From positions 1 through 12,727 of the forward strand of contig MCBC01000010.1 in NCBI GenBank assembly GCA_001723855.1: a DNA stretch of 12,727 nt. The letters run 5' to 3'. Under the pieces are notes generated by a model that did not search any database, was not told where the DNA came from, and saw only the letters and a program-made list of their open reading frames with translations. A program made the translations under genes and the position numbers. Numbering within the stretch: position 1 is the stretch's first letter; every line of letters starts with the position of its first letter. Of the stretch, positions 2,550 to 12,086 are shown piece by piece. This DNA comes from Candidatus Altarchaeales archaeon WOR_SM1_86-2. GTDB taxonomy: Archaea > Altiarchaeota > Altiarchaeia > IMC4 > MCBC01.

Positions 2550-2810
2550 ATGGCTGAATTGGTTGTTAATATTCCCGAGGAATTGGCACACGAAATTAAG
2601 GGTATGCATGTGAACTGGCAGGATGTTGCCTTAGAGGCAGTCAAATCAAGAGCGTTTGAATTAAAACTTGAAAAATCCCGTAAACTGAGACACTTACTAT
2701 TTAAGGTGCTCATATCAAAAAGTAAACTAACCGAGGAGGATGCAATGGAGTTAGGTAAGGATATTAACGAGTCAATGCTTAAAGACCTTAAAAATAAAGG
2801 GTTGATATAA
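2550..2810 (+). CDS. VapB-like antitoxin (UPF0175-like / ribbon-helix-helix type)
   Basis: This is a small 86-residue protein. Its N-terminus (AELVVNIPEELAHEIK...WQDVALEAVKSRAFELKLEKS) has the strand-then-two-helices look of ribbon-helix-helix or UPF0175-type antitoxins; the rest is a charged helical tail (LLFKVLISKSKLTEEDAMELGKDI). The stop is immediately followed by the ATG of a PIN-domain gene with zero spacing, the usual antitoxin-toxin order. The expected role is to bind and neutralise the PIN nuclease and autoregulate the pair. It lies on the opposite strand to all other genes left of 8.3 kb and sits between two copies of the SIR2 5' end. The pairing is firm; the exact antitoxin family is less so. 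Confidence 0.75.
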   Translation: MAELVVNIPEELAHEIKGMHVNWQDVALEAVKSRAFELKLEKSRKLRHLLFKVLISKSKLTEEDAMELGKDINESMLKDLKNKGLI

Positions 2811-3221
2811 ATGGAATCCATAATAGTTGACGCAAATAAAGTAATGGCATCGTTTATTACAGAAGGGATAGTGCATGATACACTATTTTCCGGAAAGTTC
2901 ATACCGATTGCCCCGGAAAAGTTATTGGAGGAAGTTAAAAAACATAAGGGAGATATTGCAAAAAAATCCGGGATGAATTTAAGTGATGTTGAATCGGCAA
3001 TAGAGTTACTTCTGCCTGATTTTAAGGTATTTTCCAGAGACATGTATCTTGACAGGTTAAAAGAAGCAAAAGGATTATCCCCGCATTTGAAAGATGTTGA
3101 ATATTTTGCCTTATCATTATCTATTGGCTGCCCGATATGGTCAAATGAAAAGGCATTTAAAGAGCAATCCAGGATCAAGGTGTTCTCAACTTCCGAATTA
3201 TTGAATTTTTTATCTGAATAA
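2811..3221 (+). CDS. PIN-domain ribonuclease, VapC-like toxin
   Basis: This 136-residue protein has a PIN-domain pattern. IIVDANKVMASF gives the first acidic residue (D7), E40/E41 lie in the next helix, HLKDVEYFALSLSIG supplies D95, and PIWSNEKAFK (108-117) is the typical last strand with the N/E cluster. The order DAN...E...KDxxYFALA...WSNEK is that of the archaeal PIN group found next to short antitoxins. It probably cleaves RNA in a metal-dependent way when freed from the upstream antitoxin. It follows the antitoxin stop directly (TAA ATG). Its stop lies about 5 bp from the remains of a SIR2 gene on the other strand, which suggests the pair is a later arrival. Confidence 0.85.
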   Translation: MESIIVDANKVMASFITEGIVHDTLFSGKFIPIAPEKLLEEVKKHKGDIAKKSGMNLSDVESAIELLLPDFKVFSRDMYLDRLKEAKGLSPHLKDVEYFALSLSIGCPIWSNEKAFKEQSRIKVFSTSELLNFLSE

Positions 3222-3226
3222 TTGCT

Positions 3227-3352
3227 TTTATTTAGGATGTATTTTTTTACATCATTTGCTGAAAGTAGCTCTGAATTCCTTGAAATTCCTGCAGCGCAAA
3301 ATACTGCGAATTCTTCATCCTTTAATGAGTTTATGATTTCTGTTATTTCCAC
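3227..3352 (-). pseudogene. 5' remnant of a second SIR2 gene
   Basis: Read from a GTG at 3352, the first ~42 codons give MEITEIINSLKDEEFAVFCA, then AGISRNSELLSANDVKKYILNK. The first 20 residues match the intact SIR2-TPR protein at 18 of 20. The part after SRNSE differs from it but still looks like an authentic SIR2 N-terminus (…ANDVKKYILNK), so this came from a related SIR2 gene, not just a fresh copy. The glycine before AGIS is alanine. Similarity stops at about 3227, next to the PIN stop at 3221; beyond that the frame stays open only because it is antisense to the toxin genes. The sequence upstream of the start is conserved with the intact gene, so it may still be transcribed into the toxin genes. 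Confidence 0.72.
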
Positions 3353-3362
3353 TTTTATTTTT
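3281..3362 (-). repeat. 82-bp direct repeat, copy 2 (SIR2 remnant 5' end)
   Basis: This is the partner of 2443-2524, with three mismatches by eye. It includes 10 bp upstream of the GTG, so part of the leader is shared as well. Recombination between the copies would remove the toxin-antitoxin pair together with the remnant and leave one SIR2 start. Confidence 0.9.
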
Positions 3363-3398
3363 TGATTTTAATGATGAGTCCCAAATTTTATTTTAATT

Positions 3399-5112: not shown

Positions 5113-5163
5113 TCAACTCAATTTTTCGACATCTTCAGTGTCTGCTTTTTTATTAATTTTCAT
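5113..5163 (-). other. Possible 16-codon ORF coupled to the membrane operon
   Basis: An ATG at 5163-5161 overlaps the stop of the upstream membrane-protein gene as ATGA. It opens a 16-codon frame (MKINKKADTEDVEKLS) that stops at 5113. The overlap copies the tight spacing of the rest of the operon, but the frame is short enough to occur by chance. The same stretch contains a small inverted repeat (GACA...TGTC) near 5128-5142 that could instead be part of a transcript end. Confidence 0.12.
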
Positions 5164-6071
5164 TTTCCATCACCCCTCAAGATCTTAATTGAATTTTCCT
5201 TATTACCATTAGCAAACTCAATAAATGATTGTTCAAATTTCTCTGCAATATTCCTGCAAAGTGTGTGATAAGTCACCTCCCTGTAGATATTTTTATAATC
5301 TTCTCTTGAGACAAATACTGTAATTTTCCCATTCTTACCCATTCTTATCCACGAGCCCAGATTTCCACAGTAAAACACATCAAGGTATGTCAGCATATCT
5401 CTTCTTGCAGTTATCCACATTTTTACGCTCTCTTCCTCACATCTCCAGTTAATAATTATGAAATTTTTAGCGAGAAGTTTGCAAAACTCGTCAATATGCG
5501 AAAGATCAATATCTGATCCGTGCTTCATTTTATATGTATGTGGTCGTTCGGTGTAACCATCCTGGGTTGAATGAATGTCGTCCGCGATCTTGCCCACAAC
5601 ACATCCGCCAAGAAACCATGTAGTGTATCGTTGGGTTTTCAGCCCAAAATAAGCAAATAATCCGAATAATCCGAAAACTATTCCGATGATAAGTAATGCT
5701 AAAATAACGGGATTCCTCCCCACCATTTCTTTCGTTATTGAGATAAACAATCCAATGATATCTATATTTACAAATTCGCAGATAAAATCAACAACAATTA
5801 TAATGGCTCCGAGTATAAATGGTAGAATCGCACCGATAACATAATACCTTTTATGTGTTTTTATGGCGATCGGCACCATAGGCAGCCAGAAAACAAGCAA
5901 AGGGTATGCTAAATAGCATATTTGGAATATGCGAATATCATTCATAATAACCGATAATATGAGCCCTATGATGCCCATAACAATCACGGATGCCAGTATG
6001 ATACTACTTACCGGGTGATATCTTCTATACCATGCGATTTTTTCTTTTAATGATTTATTTGTTTCATGCAT
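5160..6071 (-). CDS. Membrane protein, paralog 3 of a tandem triplet
   Basis: This 303-residue protein has no recognised family. About four membrane segments (near 20-43, 48-70, 77-97 and 121-143) are followed by a soluble C-terminal domain of about 155 residues. It shares two signatures with the two upstream genes: DGYTERP (171-177) just after the last membrane segment, and a C-terminal block with ITVFVSREDY, EVTYHTLCRNIAEKFEQSFIEF and IKILRG. The ATG is preceded by a clear ribosome binding site (GAGGTGA, 5 nt away) and overlaps the previous stop by 8 nt (ATGCATGA). The N-terminal halves of the three paralogs are much less alike than the C-terminal domains, so the soluble domain is probably the functional core. 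Function unknown. Confidence 0.83.
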   Translation of the reverse strand: MHETNKSLKEKIAWYRRYHPVSSIILASVIVMGIIGLILSVIMNDIRIFQICYLAYPLLVFWLPMVPIAIKTHKRYYVIGAILPFILGAIIIVVDFICEFVNIDIIGLFISITKEMVGRNPVILALLIIGIVFGLFGLFAYFGLKTQRYTTWFLGGCVVGKIADDIHSTQDGYTERPHTYKMKHGSDIDLSHIDEFCKLLAKNFIIINWRCEEESVKMWITARRDMLTYLDVFYCGNLGSWIRMGKNGKITVFVSREDYKNIYREVTYHTLCRNIAEKFEQSFIEFANGNKENSIKILRGDGK

Positions 6072-7038
6072 TTATTTCACCTCTCAAAATTTTAATTGCA
6101 TTCTCCTTATTGCCCGTTGCAGATTCAATAAATGCTCGTTCAAATCTTTCCGCAATGATCCTGCACAATGTGTGATAAGTTACTTCCTCTAAAATCCTGT
6201 CATAGTCACCTTTCGATACAAAAACGGTTATCTTTCCCTCGCTATTTAATTTAATCCATGAAATTTTATCCTTCCCGAGTGATAGAAATATTGAATAAAA
6301 TTGTGCTATCATGAGATATGCAGTAACGGGATAAAATATTGCATCATTCTCGTTAATTTTCCAGTCCATGAAAATCAATTCCTTGCCCATTGTTTTTCCA
6401 AAATTATCTACCTTATTTTTGAAATTTTTATTTAGCATATTTTTTATTTCAACGGATTCTTTGCTGAATGGTCTTTGAGAGTAGCCATTCATCTGCGAAT
6501 CAATATCCATTCCAGCAGTTACAACGAGATTGCCGTATAATGCCGTAGCCTCTTGCTCCCCTTTCATTTTGAAGAGCATCCACCAGCACAAAAAAATAAA
6601 AAACGGAACCACTACAATGTAGAAATTATTTATAACTCCAACCCCATACAATCCATAACCAGCACAAAGCAGTAATGAAAAGATTAATGATATTATCTGG
6701 TCCCTATTTTTTGTTTTGAATACAAACCCGGCATGTACAAGGAGTAATGGGATAACAAGTATGGCTAAAAGAAGGAATCCTTTCCTCGCACTGCCCAGGA
6801 TTACCGCGGCCGCCATAAAAAGAATTAAGATACCGATTATGAGTGCCGCGACTTTCCAGTTACCTCCTTTTGATACGCGATATTTTTCAAATTGCTGCCA
6901 TCGTTTTTTTTCTGATTCGCTCATGTCCCTCATATGTCTGTTTCGCAGGTACTCACGTAATTTGAACCCGATCAGCATGCTTACAATCATTAACAATAAC
7001 ATTCCACCCAACAGTAAAAGCATTGTTGTTTCATCCAT
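6064..7038 (-). CDS. Membrane protein, paralog 2 of a tandem triplet
   Basis: This protein has 324 residues from the ATG at 7038; an ATG two codons earlier (7044) is also possible. I prefer 7038 because it gives the same 8-nt stop/start overlap (ATGGATGA) as the next gene and an MDE start like the other paralogs. About five membrane segments lie near 6-24, 61-81, 86-106, 114-133 and 138-156, with a charged loop between the first two (residues 27-58, rich in K, R and E). The soluble domain carries NGYSQRP (about 184-190), then ITVFVSKGDY, EVTYHTLCRIIAERFERAFIE and IKILRG. It sits in the middle of a coupled three-gene operon. No enzyme motif is recognised. Confidence 0.83.
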   Translation of the reverse strand: MDETTMLLLLGGMLLLMIVSMLIGFKLREYLRNRHMRDMSESEKKRWQQFEKYRVSKGGNWKVAALIIGILILFMAAAVILGSARKGFLLLAILVIPLLLVHAGFVFKTKNRDQIISLIFSLLLCAGYGLYGVGVINNFYIVVVPFFIFLCWWMLFKMKGEQEATALYGNLVVTAGMDIDSQMNGYSQRPFSKESVEIKNMLNKNFKNKVDNFGKTMGKELIFMDWKINENDAIFYPVTAYLMIAQFYSIFLSLGKDKISWIKLNSEGKITVFVSKGDYDRILEEVTYHTLCRIIAERFERAFIESATGNKENAIKILRGEINA

Positions 7039-8083
7039 TTTCATCGCATCTTAAAATTTTAATTGCACTCTCTTTATCTCCTTTAGTAAATTCAATAAAT
7101 GATTTTTCAAATATTTCCGCAACATTCCGGCACAATACATGATAGGCAACAGGCTCTAAGATCCTCTCATAGTCATTTTTTGAAATAAATACAGTAATCC
7201 GATCGTCTTCTGTTATCTTAAACCATGTGAATTTCTTTTTGTTGAAAAGGAAATCAATTGATGCCATCCAATAAGTATATATTTTCAGATCCATAACATT
7301 CGTTGAGGGAAAATAAACTGCGGAATTCTCTTTAATGCCGTAATCAAAAATAATAAACTCTTTACCGAGCGCCTGTGCAAATTTCCCTGCAGTACCCTTA
7401 AAATCTTTCACAGAAATTTTTGTTTTCCTGCTGTATGGTCTCTGCGAATAACCATCTGAATGATCATCAATCTTCTCGCCTTCTTTAACCACAATATTCC
7501 GGTAAAGACCAAAAGGATCTACTTTGCACCTCTTTCTCATTCGCAGATATCCGAGAAAAATTCCTACAAACAACATCATACACATAACCAAAACTACCGA
7601 CATATCTCCAAAAACACCAAATATGAACAATATTATCCCTGAAACGGCAAGTAATTGTATTACAGATGCCAAATCAAAAAATTGATTTCTTGTCTTGTAT
7701 GCGATTTTCATATTCATCAGGATCAAGGGTAGAAAGAGTAAAGTGAGGACACCCCACAAAAATTTGATTTCATAATCCGTGGGTGTTGGTTCATTTGTTA
7801 TCACTGGATAAGAATAGTGGATTATGCTGCCCAATATCATGACTAATGCAATGTAAACAATGAATCCCTTTGATTGTTCCCACCAGATTTTTCGCATATA
7901 TCTCCAGAAAATATTTTGGCTCTTCACTACAAAGTAGATAAATATCACACAGAATATAACAGATATTACAAGTAAAAAACTTCCAAGCCCTATATTTTTC
8001 CATACCAGGCGCACCACAATACTTGCAAGTGCTGCAAGTATGCCAATTGCTATGCATACCCACATCAACTTTTTTTCATCCAT
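7031..8083 (-). CDS. Membrane protein, paralog 1 of a tandem triplet (first gene)
   Basis: This 350-residue protein has about six membrane segments (near 7-26, 32-53, 72-91, 107-126, 139-158 and 162-180) followed by a soluble domain. The shared motifs are DGYSQRP (210-216), ITVFISKNDY, PVAYHVLCRNVAEIFEKSFIEF and IKILRC at the end. It is the first gene of the minus-strand operon, with a TATA-like box about 45 bp upstream and no ribosome binding site, consistent with a short leader. The stop overlaps the next start. Three tandem copies differing in membrane-segment number but keeping the same C-terminal domain suggest a hetero-oligomeric membrane complex; that is inference. Family and function are unknown to me. 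Confidence 0.84.
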   Translation of the reverse strand: MDEKKLMWVCIAIGILAALASIVVRLVWKNIGLGSFLLVISVIFCVIFIYFVVKSQNIFWRYMRKIWWEQSKGFIVYIALVMILGSIIHYSYPVITNEPTPTDYEIKFLWGVLTLLFLPLILMNMKIAYKTRNQFFDLASVIQLLAVSGIILFIFGVFGDMSVVLVMCMMLFVGIFLGYLRMRKRCKVDPFGLYRNIVVKEGEKIDDHSDGYSQRPYSRKTKISVKDFKGTAGKFAQALGKEFIIFDYGIKENSAVYFPSTNVMDLKIYTYWMASIDFLFNKKKFTWFKITEDDRITVFISKNDYERILEPVAYHVLCRNVAEIFEKSFIEFTKGDKESAIKILRCDENG

Positions 8084-8320: not shown

Positions 8321-8374
8321 TTATCTGATACAATAAAAAATTTGCATAGCAAATTTTTTAGCATTGAAAACTAG
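8315..8374 (+). CDS. 19-codon leader ORF ending in the double-hairpin element
   Basis: The frame reads MTLSDTIKNLHSKFFSIEN then TAG. It has a well-placed ribosome binding site (AGGTGA at 8302-8307, 7 nt before the ATG), whereas the flavoprotein ATG at 8399 has none. Its last 12 residues (KNLHSKFFSIEN) equal the last 12 of the nucleotidyltransferase protein upstream of hisS, because both ends lie in copies of the same repeat. The stop is 24 nt before the next ATG in both cases. It may be a translated leader that controls the flavoprotein gene by coupling, or the tail of a lost gene that gained a start. Translation is not proven. Confidence 0.4.
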   Translation: MTLSDTIKNLHSKFFSIEN

Positions 8375-8397
8375 TATAGTTTTCAATACAATAAAAA
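8331..8397 (+). repeat. Double-palindrome element, copy 1
   Basis: Hairpin A has arms at 8335-8345 and 8349-8359 with loop ata. Hairpin B has arms at 8363-8373 and 8377-8387 with loop gta. Both are perfect 11+3+11 palindromes separated by agc. A 12-bp direct repeat (atacaataaaaa) occurs at 8328-8339 and 8386-8397. The element ends one base before the flavoprotein ATG. A second copy precedes hisS. Confidence 0.88.
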
Positions 8398-8398
8398 G

Positions 8399-9712
8399 AT
8401 GCGTATTATAATAATCGGATGTGGAGATGCGGGGATTTCGGCAGCGTTCTCGGCACTGAGAGAGAACCCCAAGGCCGAGATACTGGTGATAGAAAAGAAA
8501 GGGTATTTTTATCCGAAGTGCCCGCTGCCGTTTGTCCTGGAGGGGGATGTAAAAATCGAGGATATAGTGACGCCCCTTTCCAAATTATTTGCAAATTCCG
8601 GGATTAACTATGAAACAGATGAGGTCGTGGGTGTTGACACTGAAAATAAGGTCGTGCAAACAAAAAACAACAGGTTTACATACGACTGCCTGATAATCGC
8701 AACCGGGTCAAAGGCTGTCATTCCGCCAATAAAGGGCGTAAATTTAGAGGGCGTTTATACCTTAAAGACACTTGAGGATACCAAAAAGATTATGCAGCGG
8801 ATGGAAAAGTCAAAGGAAGCGGTTATAATCGGGGGAGGGTTTATCGGCTGCGAGACAGCGGCTTCGTTAACAAATAAGAACATTTCCACAACCATAGTTG
8901 AGCTGCTCCCAAATCTTCTCTCCCCGCAATTCGATGCGAATTTCTCCAGGATCGTAGAAAATAAATTAAATGAGAACGGGGTGAGAATGATAACCGGTAA
9001 AAGCGTGGATGAGATAATAGGAAAGGATGAAGTTGAAGCGGTCCGGGTTGGGGACGAGATAATTGCCTGCAGCCTGGTTATAATGAGCGTTGGAGTCAGA
9101 CCGGATGTTGAGTTTTTGAAGACTATAGAGGTTGGAAAATTCGGGATAAAGGTGGATGAGAAATTAAGAACCTCTGCGAAGGGGGTTTATGCCTGCGGCG
9201 ACTGCATAAGAATAAGGTTCATGGTAACCAACGAACCGCAGCAAAGCGGCTTAGGAACGGTTGCGGAAAGAGCGGGACATGTCGCAGGATTAAATGCTGC
9301 CGGGGGGGATGCAACTTTCTATCATACCCTGAATTCAATGATAACGAAGATATTTGATTTGGAAATCGGCGTAACGGGAATGAATGAGACAATGGCAAAG
9401 GAACGAGGATATAAGGTCGTAAGCGGGATAGCTAAGGGCCTATCCAAACCAAAGTATTACCCGGGAGGTAAAGAATTGATAACCAAATTGATTTATCATG
9501 CCAACATACATAAACTGCTCGGGGCGGAGATTGCCGGCTATGAAGGGGTGGACGGTTATCTGAATCTCGCTTCCATGGCCATACAGAAAGGAAGCATCAT
9601 GGATGACATGCTCAGGTTCAGATACTGCTACGCCCCCCCTATATGCTCGGCCCCAAACCCGATGATCCCCGCAACGGAAAATGCTTACAGGAAGTTAAGG
9701 AGAAGAAGGTGA
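8399..9712 (+). CDS. FAD/NAD(P)-dependent disulfide oxidoreductase, CoA-disulfide reductase/NADH oxidase type
   Basis: This is a 437-residue flavoprotein of normal length for the single-cysteine branch of the pyridine nucleotide-disulfide reductase family. FAD-binding GCGDAGIS lies near 7-14, and the redox cysteine in KCPLPFVLEG is C41, at the position of Cys42/43 in NADH oxidases and CoA-disulfide reductases. ATGS lies near 100, the NAD(P)-binding VIIGGGFIGCETA near 141-153, and the second FAD motif VYACGDC near 262-268. The C-terminal dimerisation domain ends in YCYAPPICSAPNPMIPA. It probably reduces CoA disulfide, polysulfide or oxygen with NAD(P)H in the cytoplasm; the substrate cannot be told from sequence. 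The start follows a double-hairpin repeat and a short ORF, with no ribosome binding site of its own. Codons are less AT-rich than in the genes to the left. Confidence 0.9.
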   Translation: MRIIIIGCGDAGISAAFSALRENPKAEILVIEKKGYFYPKCPLPFVLEGDVKIEDIVTPLSKLFANSGINYETDEVVGVDTENKVVQTKNNRFTYDCLIIATGSKAVIPPIKGVNLEGVYTLKTLEDTKKIMQRMEKSKEAVIIGGGFIGCETAASLTNKNISTTIVELLPNLLSPQFDANFSRIVENKLNENGVRMITGKSVDEIIGKDEVEAVRVGDEIIACSLVIMSVGVRPDVEFLKTIEVGKFGIKVDEKLRTSAKGVYACGDCIRIRFMVTNEPQQSGLGTVAERAGHVAGLNAAGGDATFYHTLNSMITKIFDLEIGVTGMNETMAKERGYKVVSGIAKGLSKPKYYPGGKELITKLIYHANIHKLLGAEIAGYEGVDGYLNLASMAIQKGSIMDDMLRFRYCYAPPICSAPNPMIPATENAYRKLRRRR

Positions 9713-9790
9713 TTATACTTTGGTTTATTAATACTGTTTGGTATAATCTTTTTATACTTTAGTTTATTAATAATGAAAGGTATAATCCAA
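9713..9790. terminator. Two 39-bp tandem repeats between convergent genes, probable terminator
   Basis: The units at 9713-9751 and 9752-9790 match at about 31 of 39 positions. Each begins TTATAC and has GTATAA near its end, so each can form a stem; unit 2 pairs TTATACTTT with AAGGTATAA, including one G-T pair. T-rich runs follow the first stem. The flavoprotein gene ends at 9712 and hisS ends at 9807 on the other strand, so a two-way transcript end is expected here. Confidence 0.5.
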
Positions 9791-9806: not shown

Positions 9807-11066
9807 TTATGGTTTTCCAAAAAACGCCCCTATTCCGTCCATGTTAATAACTGCCTGTTCCCCGGTTCTCATATCTCTCACCACAACCTTATCCTCCTTT
9901 AATTCTCTCGGGCCCACGATAACGGTCCATCTTGCACCTGTGTTATTCGCGTAATCCAGGATTTTATTCAGCTTTCGGTTCATAAGGTCAAGGTCGACAG
10001 CCAGGTTGGATGATCTTCTCAGCTGGCAGGCGATTTTAAATGCGTCCTTCCGTACGTCTTTACTCACTGGAGCGATTACAACCTTATCCGCCTCTTTAGA
10101 GACTTTAATTTCCTGCACTTCCATAGCGTCCATCACCCTATCGAAACCAAACGCGAACCCCACCGCAGGCATTCTTTGCCCGGAAAACAGTTCGATCAGG
10201 CGGTCATACCTTCCTCCCCCGCATATCTGATCCTGGGCTCCCAGCCCGGGAACTCTTATCTCAAAAACCATTCCCGTATAGTATTCAAGGCCGCGGGCGA
10301 TGCCTAAATTTATTGTGTAATCCATATCCGCGATATCGAGATACGAGAGAATTTCTTCCAATTCCCCAAGAGCATTTATCGCGGAAGGATACGCATCCAG
10401 CAGCGAATATGCCCTCTCTATTACTTCCTTATCGCTGTCCTCCAGTTCAATCAGACCCAATAAAACATCATGCTCAACCAGCACCTCCAATCTCGCAATA
10501 TCTTTTTTATCAACCACATTAATTAACTCGTCCTGCTTTTCCTCCTCTATCCCAAGATCACCCATCAAGCCCCGCAAAATACCCAGGTGTCCGACCTCTA
10601 ATTCAAAAGCTAAACCAAGTTCCTTTAACGCATCATTTGCCGCCATTATAACTTCGGCGTCACCTTCCACACCTTTCGCCCCGATCAGTTCGATTCCCTG
10701 CTGCCAGAACTCCCGGTACCTTCCTTTCTGGGGGCGCTCATACCTGAACATGGGACCGAAATACGACAGTTTCAGCGGCTTCTGGAGGTTCTGTAATTTT
10801 TGAGCAAACATCCTGCATACGGATGCTGTTGCTTCAGGTCTTAAACATAACTCGCGGTCTGATTTGTCCCTGAAAACATACATCTCCGCCCTTATCTCCT
10901 CCCCCGACTTAAGGGCAAAAAGTTCCGTATGCTCAAATGTCGGAATGGAAATCTCGGAATAACCGTAGCGTTCGAAAACATTTTGTATCACTTGCCTGGC
11001 ATAATTTCTCCTTTCCATCTCCACGGGGGCGAAATCACGGGTTCCGCGGGGTTTTTCAATATTCAT
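9807..11066 (-). CDS. hisS: Histidyl-tRNA synthetase
   Basis: This 419-residue class II aminoacyl-tRNA synthetase attaches histidine to tRNA-His in the cytoplasm. All family signatures are present: RGTRDFAP at 7-14, LCLRPEAT at 73-80, motif 2 FRYERPQKGRYREFWQQGIE at 107-126, RGLEYYTGMVFE at 258-269, GGGRYDRL at 283-290, and motif 3 AVGFAFGFDR at 301-310. The anticodon-binding domain covers about 325-415 (VVIAPV...LRR...LNKILDYANNTGA..TVIVG). Length and domain order are normal. The ATG lies 24 nt after the stop of a nucleotidyltransferase-like gene, and the gap is filled by the end of the double-palindrome repeat, so hisS is probably transcribed from the upstream gene's promoter. Confidence 0.97.
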   Translation of the reverse strand: MNIEKPRGTRDFAPVEMERRNYARQVIQNVFERYGYSEISIPTFEHTELFALKSGEEIRAEMYVFRDKSDRELCLRPEATASVCRMFAQKLQNLQKPLKLSYFGPMFRYERPQKGRYREFWQQGIELIGAKGVEGDAEVIMAANDALKELGLAFELEVGHLGILRGLMGDLGIEEEKQDELINVVDKKDIARLEVLVEHDVLLGLIELEDSDKEVIERAYSLLDAYPSAINALGELEEILSYLDIADMDYTINLGIARGLEYYTGMVFEIRVPGLGAQDQICGGGRYDRLIELFSGQRMPAVGFAFGFDRVMDAMEVQEIKVSKEADKVVIAPVSKDVRKDAFKIACQLRRSSNLAVDLDLMNRKLNKILDYANNTGARWTVIVGPRELKEDKVVVRDMRTGEQAVINMDGIGAFFGKP

Positions 11067-11068
11067 AT

Positions 11069-11133
11069 TTTTTATTGTATGAAAACTATATTAGTTTTCA
11101 ATGCTAAAAAATTTGCTATGCAAATTTTTATTG
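11069..11133 (-). repeat. Double-palindrome element, copy 2
   Basis: Read on the minus strand this matches 8331-8397 with one substitution and two single-base indels. Hairpin A arms are 11107-11116 and 11120-11129; hairpin B arms are 11080-11088 and 11092-11100, each around a 3-nt loop. It supplies the last codons and stop of the nucleotidyltransferase-like gene and reaches to 2 bp before the hisS ATG. Its orientation toward hisS is the same as that of copy 1 toward the flavoprotein gene. Confidence 0.88.
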
Positions 11134-12086
11134 AAATATAATGAAGATAAAAGATCATTTAGATTTTTCTCATTCTCTTTCCTCATTGATCTTGTGAATC
11201 CGGGGATTTTTGACTCATCTAACGCGATCTTTATGTCCTTATCAAGCTTCTCGAATATCCCGTCCCGCATATCCGCTGCGTAATAAATGAAGCGATCCGG
11301 CTTTACCTTCACCTTCTCTATATCACATTTGTGGTTGTAGCATTGCATTAAAAACTCGAACTCTTCTGTATCAAATCTATCCCCGTATTCCTCAAAACAT
11401 AGATGATAAAAGTTCCTGCTTATCTTTTGCCGCTCAAGCAGGTACAAGCCGTTAAGGCATATCCACACGCCGTCTATTGTTAATTTGACAACCGGGGTGC
11501 AGCTGTTTTTCTTTAATGACTCAAGCATTCTTCTCTCACCATCAACTCTTCTCCTATGTCTCTGCAGTTGGCTTTTCATATACCCGTGAAAATAACCGAA
11601 CACGCTGTCCTTGTTCAAATGAAAGTCATTTTTTAGATAATCCAGCAGTTTCGCGAACCACTTTGTTTCGATGTATGGAATGCCGTTAAGAATCTTATAG
11701 ATGTAATCTATCTTTTGCGAATAGATGTTTGAAAATAACTCCTTTCTCGTGTCAGTTGTTGTTTTGATGGGGATAAACACCAGTTCATATTCTTTACCGT
11801 CCATCACGTAGAATGCAGTTCCGCTCCCGCCCTTGACTTCGATCCTCCGGGTTTTTTTTATGTTGATCGTCGGTGGATGTATTTTGATTAAATCCTCCGT
11901 GTTGTATGAATAGTAAACATTTAGATCTATATCCGAGTCTCTATTCACGGTTCCTTTTGCATGTGCCCCGGCGAGCAGGATTCCCTGGACATTCACGTCT
12001 TTAAAGAACGGCTCTATTTTGCCCCAGAATATATCGCAGTGACCAGCAACTTCTTCATCTATTTCTTTGTGTTCTACTTCTATCAT
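11091..12086 (-). CDS. Nucleotidyltransferase-fold protein with helical C-terminal region
   Basis: This 331-residue protein has a polymerase-beta-type nucleotidyltransferase motif near its N-terminus: GILLAGAHAKGTVNRDSDIDLNVYY (35-59). The usual GS is GA, but the two metal-binding aspartates D52 and D54 are kept, and the acidic residue in KEYELVFIPI (about residue 100) may be the third. From about 130 the protein is largely helical, with no family I recognise. This is the fold of kanamycin nucleotidyltransferase and of MNT proteins that modify small molecules, RNA or partner proteins; the substrate here is unknown. It lies directly upstream of hisS and diverges from the KH gene. The last 12 residues (KNLHSKFFSIEN) and the stop are encoded by a repeat element, so the original C-terminus may have been replaced. 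Confidence 0.78.
   Translation of the reverse strand: MIEVEHKEIDEEVAGHCDIFWGKIEPFFKDVNVQGILLAGAHAKGTVNRDSDIDLNVYYSYNTEDLIKIHPPTINIKKTRRIEVKGGSGTAFYVMDGKEYELVFIPIKTTTDTRKELFSNIYSQKIDYIYKILNGIPYIETKWFAKLLDYLKNDFHLNKDSVFGYFHGYMKSQLQRHRRRVDGERRMLESLKKNSCTPVVKLTIDGVWICLNGLYLLERQKISRNFYHLCFEEYGDRFDTEEFEFLMQCYNHKCDIEKVKVKPDRFIYYAADMRDGIFEKLDKDIKIALDESKIPGFTRSMRKENEKNLNDLLSSLYFNKNLHSKFFSIEN

Follow-up and report, generated by a model that had tools for sequence, protein, structure and literature searches.

How did the same small structure come to stand before two unrelated genes? The window (the whole 12,727-nt stretch of DNA analysed here) contains two near-identical double hairpins of ~60 bases, each of them before a different and unrelated gene. 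Both copies are probably insertions of one non-coding miniature mobile element of ~56–58 bp. The anatomy of the copies, a protein from a second strain and similar double hairpins in other Altiarchaeota bear on this reading, as do several alternatives in which the hairpins would be regulatory or ancestral.

Two copies of a double hairpin

Both copies consist of two tandem perfect hairpins followed by a 3′ tail ATACAATAAAA (Table 1). In copy 1, hairpin 1 is TAAAAAATTTGC-ATA-GCAAATTTTTTA and hairpin 2 is ATTGAAAACTA-GTA-TAGTTTTCAAT, with GC between them; the arms of copy 2 are shorter because both one-base indels fall in the outer arms. A sequence-only reading of this DNA had described a duplicated double hairpin with the same orientation toward the downstream gene, and had counted a single substitution and two one-base indels between the copies; the sequence bears out both statements, the substitution being G/A and located in the second loop. 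Its coordinates are right to within a few bases. Its “identical geometry” with 11-bp arms and a 3-nt spacer is slightly off, with arms of 12 and 11 bp in one copy against 10 and 9 bp in the other and a GC spacer in copy 1, and the copies end 2–3 bases before ATG. Copy 1 is laid out as CAATAAAA-(58 bp)-AG-ATG (flavoprotein gene) and copy 2 as CAATAAAA-(56 bp)-AAT-ATG (hisS), which leaves 2 and 3 bases, respectively, between the tail CAATAAAA and ATG. Two features had been missed: a direct repeat of CAATAAAA bounds both copies (8331–8338 with 8389–8396, and 11126–11133 with 11070–11077), and the final 11 codons of the ORF upstream of hisS, with its stop, come from copy 2.

The double-hairpin pair is far beyond chance. 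With hairpin pairs defined by arms ≥9, loops of 3–5 and a separation of ≤10 nt, none occurs in 200 first-order Markov versions of the window, and exactly these two occur in the real one. Folded as DNA, the double hairpin has z = −7.4, with 0 of 200 shuffles as good; copy 1 folded as RNA has z = −6.0. The double hairpin is absent at ten other gene starts that were inspected.

Table 1. Positions of the two element copies, their hairpins and putative targets, and the neighbouring genes in the window
Feature	Position	Strand	Basis or remark
Left CAATAAAA, putative target site of copy 1	8331..8338	+	Sequence; same 8-mer left of copy 2 at an unrelated site
Copy 1 hairpin 1, 12-bp arms, loop ATA	8334..8360	+	Outer bases in left flank
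Copy 1 of element, 58 bp, ends in its own ATACAATAAAA	8339..8396	+	Probable extent, read from copy 2
Copy 1 hairpin 2, 11-bp arms, loop GTA	8363..8387	+	
CoA-disulfide-reductase-like flavoprotein, start just 3′ of copy 1	8399..9712	+	Best NCBIfam match, below cut-off
hisS, start just 3′ of copy 2	9807..11066	-	TIGR00442 above cut-off
Copy 2 of element, 56 bp	11070..11125	-	Probably absent in the strain encoding P0121
Copy 2 hairpins, 10- and 9-bp perfect arms	11080..11129	-	
Nucleotidyltransferase-like ORF upstream of hisS	11091..12086	-	Nine homologues aligned; weak Pfam matches only
Left CAATAAAA (minus-strand sense), putative target site of copy 2	11126..11133	-	Sequence and deletion test

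Other features of the window

HisS of the host, an Altiarchaeota lineage, is at most 64% identical to named Altiarchaeota proteins, the value for a partial one; over nearly its full length it reaches 63%. A tandem 36-nt repeat, partly palindromic (GATTATAC...GTATAATC), occupies 9711–9787, in the space that separates the convergent flavoprotein and hisS genes. Elsewhere in the window, a minus-strand gene at 523–2514 encodes a fusion of a SIR2-like N-terminal domain and TPR repeats that is similar to ThsA of Thoeris and is possibly a defence protein. The gene adjoins a PIN-domain gene with a small upstream ORF (2550–3221) in a toxin–antitoxin-like layout, and a 102-nt, 90%-identical second copy of its 5′ end (3271–3372, compared with 2433–2534) looks like a gene remnant. 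Three adjacent minus-strand genes at 5160–8083, apparently for membrane proteins, have a common C-terminal region that, over 185 nt, is 64–71% identical in DNA to that of one reference copy.

Element ends, putative target and a probable empty site

The right ends of the two copies are identical down to ATACAATAAAA (CAATACAATAAAA in copy 1 and CATACAATAAAA in copy 2), and the left flanks (GATACAATAAAA and TTTCAATAAAA) share CAATAAAA only. In copy 2, a T precedes the left CAATAAAA and an A the right one; in copy 1, the left CAATAAAA together with 8328–8330 makes up ATACAATAAAA. Since the right ends are the same and the left flanks differ, the left CAATAAAA would be the target and the right one would be borne by the element, and for the same reason a target-site duplication was rejected. 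An element-borne right CAATAAAA would in turn rebuild the A-rich leader before ATG. The left CAATAAAA common to both sites and the precise empty site of copy 2 may fit the insertion of PATEs 3′ of a short fixed target without target duplication, over two sites and with the one empty site deduced from a protein.

That protein, P0121, is a 98%-identical homologue of the ORF upstream of hisS and is encoded on a contig of 1668 nt. It ends in SSLYFNKKYEY, and the window ORF ends in SSLYFNKNLHSKFFSIEN. Single deletions were placed in the window sequence with starts from −30 to +39 around an anchor and lengths of 20–89, and each product was translated; among these, only a 56-bp deletion between the CAATAAAA repeats (in 10 equivalent offsets) reproduces the P0121 tail, and copy 2 would therefore be a strain-polymorphic, precisely joined insertion. 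P0121 also differs from the window ORF at other residues and hence derives from a second strain. Copy 2 thus appears to be precisely absent in that strain, a conclusion drawn from a protein sequence instead of DNA and limited to this one copy. There, the hisS start seems to come directly after CAATAAAA, and the upstream gene would overlap hisS. The element-encoded C-terminal tail is found in 0 of 9 homologues of the upstream ORF, which makes insertion in the lineage of the window the simpler reading; copy 2 was probably gained here, not lost from the other strain.

Similar double hairpins in other Altiarchaeota

A comparison with 29 Altiarchaeota genomes yielded BLAST matches to the window element (E ≤ 0.01) in 8 of them, none near identical; the best (E 2.5e-5, in G015) covers hairpin 1 alone, and a match in G007 has E 9.3e-5. 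Four genomes, G006–G009, have abundant double hairpins that resemble those of the window, built as TTTAAAAATC...GATTTTTAAA, then G, then ATTGAAAACT...AGTTTTCARTA. The unit of G007 itself has at least 51 BLAST matches in that genome (40 of 176 candidates scored). A covariance model of 25 sequences, 2 of them from the window, gave at least 150 matches in G006, 125 in G007, at least 150 in G008 and 127 in G009, with some places matched on both strands, and 0–4 matches in each of the other 25 genomes.

Covariation in the stems, which the sequence-only reading had named as a check, is present as compensatory change in similar elements of relatives. Both stems covary in elements of the G006–G009 type; in those of G007, 34 double-changed cells compare with 12.1 in shuffles and 97.4% of cells are paired (alignments used 23 of 39 G007 cores, with partial, duplicate-like or misaligned ones excluded). 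A model from which the window sequences were left out gives 38.4 bits for copy 1 (the best match in the window), 22.9 for the opposite strand of copy 1 and 21.6 for copy 2, and the best control scores 33.0 bits in 880,598 bases (stretches of G011 and G028 and ten bacterial loci). With this independent model, copy 1 lies above the best control, and copy 2 taken alone lies below both the best control and the opposite strand of copy 1. The window element may share common descent with the elements of G006–G009, judging from these scores; the scores are modest and come from AT-rich hairpins, so that convergence is also possible.

Placement was analysed in sampled stretches of G006, G008 and G009, where 77 of 113 matches (those ≥45.7 bits, at least one being the opposite strand of another) form 48 clusters. 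None of the 48 lies inside an ORF of ≥100 codons. Half of them (24) are flanked by two genes that run the same way, with which 8 agree in orientation and to which 16 are opposed; 9 of the remainder are convergent, 6 are divergent and 9 have no ORF on one side within the stretch. There is no clear orientation bias in these samples. Stretches of G028, G006, G008 and G009 and 8 of the 20 G015 contigs were chosen for holding matches and therefore give placement, not density; G011 was sampled at regular steps. Genome-wide random placement relative to genes had been named as evidence against a regulatory role: the copies, intergenic and without clear orientation, point that way in samples, though not whole genomes, of three copy-rich relatives and not in the host itself, and adjacency to start codons recurs in G028.

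Copy-rich relatives also have tandem arrays of ~50-base units in which different but self-matching stems stand side by side, and in G014 a single double hairpin, whose stems differ, immediately precedes an ATG. Perfect hairpins in intergenic DNA are ~30 times enriched in G011 (2.99 per kb vs 0.10 in Markov sequences) and G015 (3.72 vs 0.13), and amount to 1.13 vs 0.50 per kb in G028, where all stretches, as well as some of those from G015, were picked for holding matches. The intergenic hairpins of G011 (L259–L278) and G015 (L279–L298) form tandem arrays of perfect 8–12 bp hairpins in which most stems are unique (101 distinct arms among 150 hairpins in G011 and 107 among 138 in G015). Short spacers such as GTGTCC/GGACAC in G011 and GGGCCC in G015 separate the hairpins, and one array is repeated at L265 and L275. 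These arrays and the double hairpins could be one kind of element or two.

Viral contigs contain no exact copy of a 23-base core or of a G028-type core, and a 19-base hairpin match in one of them is probably due to chance or convergence. Viral contig L001 (IMGVR_UViG_3300042197_000006) has, at 35–176, two 71-nt tandem units with a similar double-hairpin layout, each with an AT hairpin (one with AAATTTGC-TAT-GCAAATTT) followed by a second hairpin.

Adjacency to start codons

Genome G028 has 29 matches of a family of its own, some of them being parts or both strands of one place. Among the 22 of 24 copies that have a 3′ end (L244 and L251 were left out), 11 directly abut the ATG of unrelated genes, as counted by hand; the BLAST query ended in ATG, which may favour ATG-adjacent copies. 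Judged by eye, most left flanks close with AAAAAT and most right ends with AATAAAAAAT, so that ATG would be rebuilt there too. Noncoding sites in the G028 samples abut a possible start in 20% of cases for AAAAAT and 29% for TAAAAAAT, against which 11 of 22 has binomial tails of 0.0016 and 0.028. Start adjacency probably results mainly from target choice. Its excess over the motif expectation means that targeting is maybe not the whole story, and its recurrence in G028 and once in G014 leaves room for a local promoter or leader effect.

Covariation in the G028 family alone is weak: 2 double-changed pairs were reached by 205 of 500 shuffles and 4 further pair types by 493 of 500; 5 double-changed cells (mean 1.7 in shuffles) and the covariation score were reached by 0 of 500. 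At L239 and L247 (C66), tandem G028 double hairpins immediately precede a small gene (MAEVVISVPEDIK...), which to the eye is similar to the small ORF at 2550–2810 of the window.

Alternative explanations

Deletion is a classic fate of hairpins that lie between short direct repeats, and an old element at hisS might have been lost from the other strain through slippage from one CAATAAAA repeat to the other, whether in the cell, during amplification or as an assembly artefact. The shortness of the P0121 contig and the fact that the site is known from a protein leave some room for this. Loss is nevertheless unlikely, as the homologues lack the element-encoded tail throughout and a copying step has to be assumed anyway for near-identical copies before two unrelated genes; the differences at other residues of P0121 mark a second strain.

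A promoter or 5′-leader cassette kept alike by selection would explain the position before ATG differently: hairpin 2 would overlap a TATA-like box, ACAATAAAA would be the initiation region of near-leaderless transcripts, and the hairpins would serve as operators or adjust expression. Within copy 1, a TATA-like TAGTATAG does lie in hairpin 2, 20–27 bases before ATG, and examples from the window, G014, G018, G028 and G011 have, by eye, a TATA-like sequence at near-constant distance before ACAATAAAA-ATG. Across the 29 genomes, ACAATAAAAN0-6ATG occurs 261 times vs 91 for the reversed pattern (summed by hand), and the above-expectation start adjacency of G028 copies points the same way. Given this overrepresentation and the TATA-like boxes before the motif, an inserted copy may bring a promoter. 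As the cause of the likeness between the copies, however, selection on such a cassette is quite improbable: the upstream gene apparently runs straight into hisS in the strain without copy 2, in the samples of G006, G008 and G009 the copies between same-direction genes oppose them in 16 cases and agree with them in 8, two G028 copies (L252 and L258) have hairpin arms without a TATA-like core, and TATA profiles have no sharp peak at 120, 90 and 110 gene starts of G011, G015 and G028. A core promoter as sole explanation was rejected, since the TATA-like box is centred ~22–24 bases before ATG, which is short for a leaderless start, and those two G028 copies have no box. A cis-acting RNA element common to the two genes (riboswitch, attenuator or translational hairpin), as the sequence-only reading had also proposed, is the most remote of these explanations. 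The covarying stems of relatives and the strong RNA fold of copy 1 would fit it, but DNA hairpins needed for mobility would covary as well, the copies of relatives are dispersed, partly tandem and without clear orientation, and the apparent passage of the upstream gene straight into hisS where copy 2 is missing leaves the proposal without support. In Rfam nothing matches the element at E ≤ 1 (a single match in the window lies elsewhere, below the gathering score), so that a riboswitch or other known RNA was rejected. A conserved hisS leader was likewise set aside: by eye, no such double hairpin occurs at 16 hisS loci (those of L125–L151 with a recognised start). The hisS leader of L134 contains TTACAATAAAA.

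Relation to known mobile palindromes

Among known systems, the element appears to behave most like IS200/IS605-derived PATEs or REPs, and would be a variant of the miniature mobile palindromes. PATEs of Haloquadratum walsbyi are described as IS200/IS605-derived, transposase-free and palindromic near their ends, with terminal-only forms down to 52 bp, strain-specific insertions, no target duplication and a short left oligonucleotide target (PMC3119063). The window element resembles them in being transposase-free and in having subterminal hairpins without a terminal inverted repeat. It differs in that the Altiarchaeota elements are AT-rich and reach >100 matches per genome where no Y1 was found, that no IS605-type element with matching ends was found, and that stems diversify within tandem arrays. 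RAYT-linked REPs and REPINs, as presented in PMC3733652 and PMC3116915, are likewise short, dispersed extragenic palindromes with dimers, tandem clusters and high copy numbers; high copy number and extragenic position apply here to the similar elements of relatives, the window itself holding two copies. Unlike REPs and REPINs, the element has two unlike hairpins in fixed order, and no Y1-type gene was found in copy-rich genomes. The REP tags GTAG/CGTC or their complements are absent from 8321–8402 and 11061–11145, and with no tags at the hairpins a REP assignment was rejected.

Mitochondrial double-hairpin elements and GC clusters (the latter in PMC4478555) are also described as tiny palindromic mobile DNA with presence or absence among strains, merging or shuffling and an unsettled mechanism. 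They are GC-rich and organellar, whereas the present element is archaeal and AT-rich, and the likeness carries no claim of homology. MITEs, as defined in PMC3119063, are similar in being non-coding miniature elements with direct repeats at their borders; here there is no overall terminal inverted repeat, and the right CAATAAAA is part of the tail, not of a classical target duplication. The proposal of a MITE- or REP-like mobile palindrome is supported as regards mobility, given that copy 2 is absent in the sister strain according to its protein and that similar elements are high-copy in relatives, and is not supported as regards a MITE or REP proper. Within the literature covered on Altiarchaeota palindromes, intergenic hairpins and transposable elements, which leaves most subscription journals outside, no such repeats are described, and the main text of the RepRanger survey (PMC12306157) has no mention of ‘altiarchae’.

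Proposed mobilization and implications

In the insertion reading, an element of two tandem AT-rich hairpins and the 3′ tail ATACAATAAAA would enter at CAATAAAA, which is an A-rich motif of leaders and is found repeatedly right before start codons in Altiarchaeota. On the left, the target copy would remain, and the element tail would give a new CAATAAAA copy beside ATG, so that the downstream gene would keep its leader and reading frame. Like IS200/IS605 elements, it would move as single-stranded hairpin DNA, by means of an enzyme supplied in trans. Precise joining, a kept left target, an element-borne right copy and compensated hairpins would be expected from IS200/IS605-type single-strand transposition, as outlined in PMC3119063 and PMC7290912.

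That a Y1-type enzyme mobilizes the element is nonetheless a tentative proposal, and we lean slightly against it. Y1 transposases (PF01797) were found in 5 of the 29 genomes and in none of G006, G007, G008, G009 and G028, all of these being drafts that are maybe incomplete. Nor was a parent transposon with matching ends found among Y1 and TnpB elements. TnpB loci number 1 in G007, 8 in G008 and 1 in G014, with none in G006, G009 and G028; model matches at three of them (L420, L421 and L422) are weak (19.6–25.0 bits, best E 0.013) and under the best control. An IS200/IS605 origin was set aside, with no Y1 found in the copy-rich drafts and no convincing hairpin match at TnpB loci. Six of the eight TnpB genes of G008 share other ends: at L416–L421, six TnpB-like genes have near-identical surroundings with inverted GTGATTTCGCTTT / AAAGCGAAATCAC at the borders, which makes them a TnpB-only element that ends in terminal inverted repeats.

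In bacteria and haloarchaea, where miniature mobile palindromes are well known, their origin has often been put down to Y1 transposases; no such enzyme was found in the Altiarchaeota drafts with >100 similar double-hairpin matches per genome. A broader reading, speculative and rather doubtful, is that Altiarchaeota contain widespread self-complementary hairpin DNA that spreads and arrays in tandem without a recognisable transposase; its stems would diversify with pairing kept, as if an arm served as the template of its own hairpin, and leaders at start codons would be rebuilt when an element inserts there. If this is true, it would imply an enzyme of a kind not yet linked to mobile palindromes. 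The many covarying copies make the structural requirement and the mobilizing enzyme directly testable. At hisS, the insertion appears to part two apparently overlapping genes, yet to rebuild the A-rich leader at the start codon. In this way a mobile element could settle at gene starts while doing little harm, and could possibly carry a promoter there.
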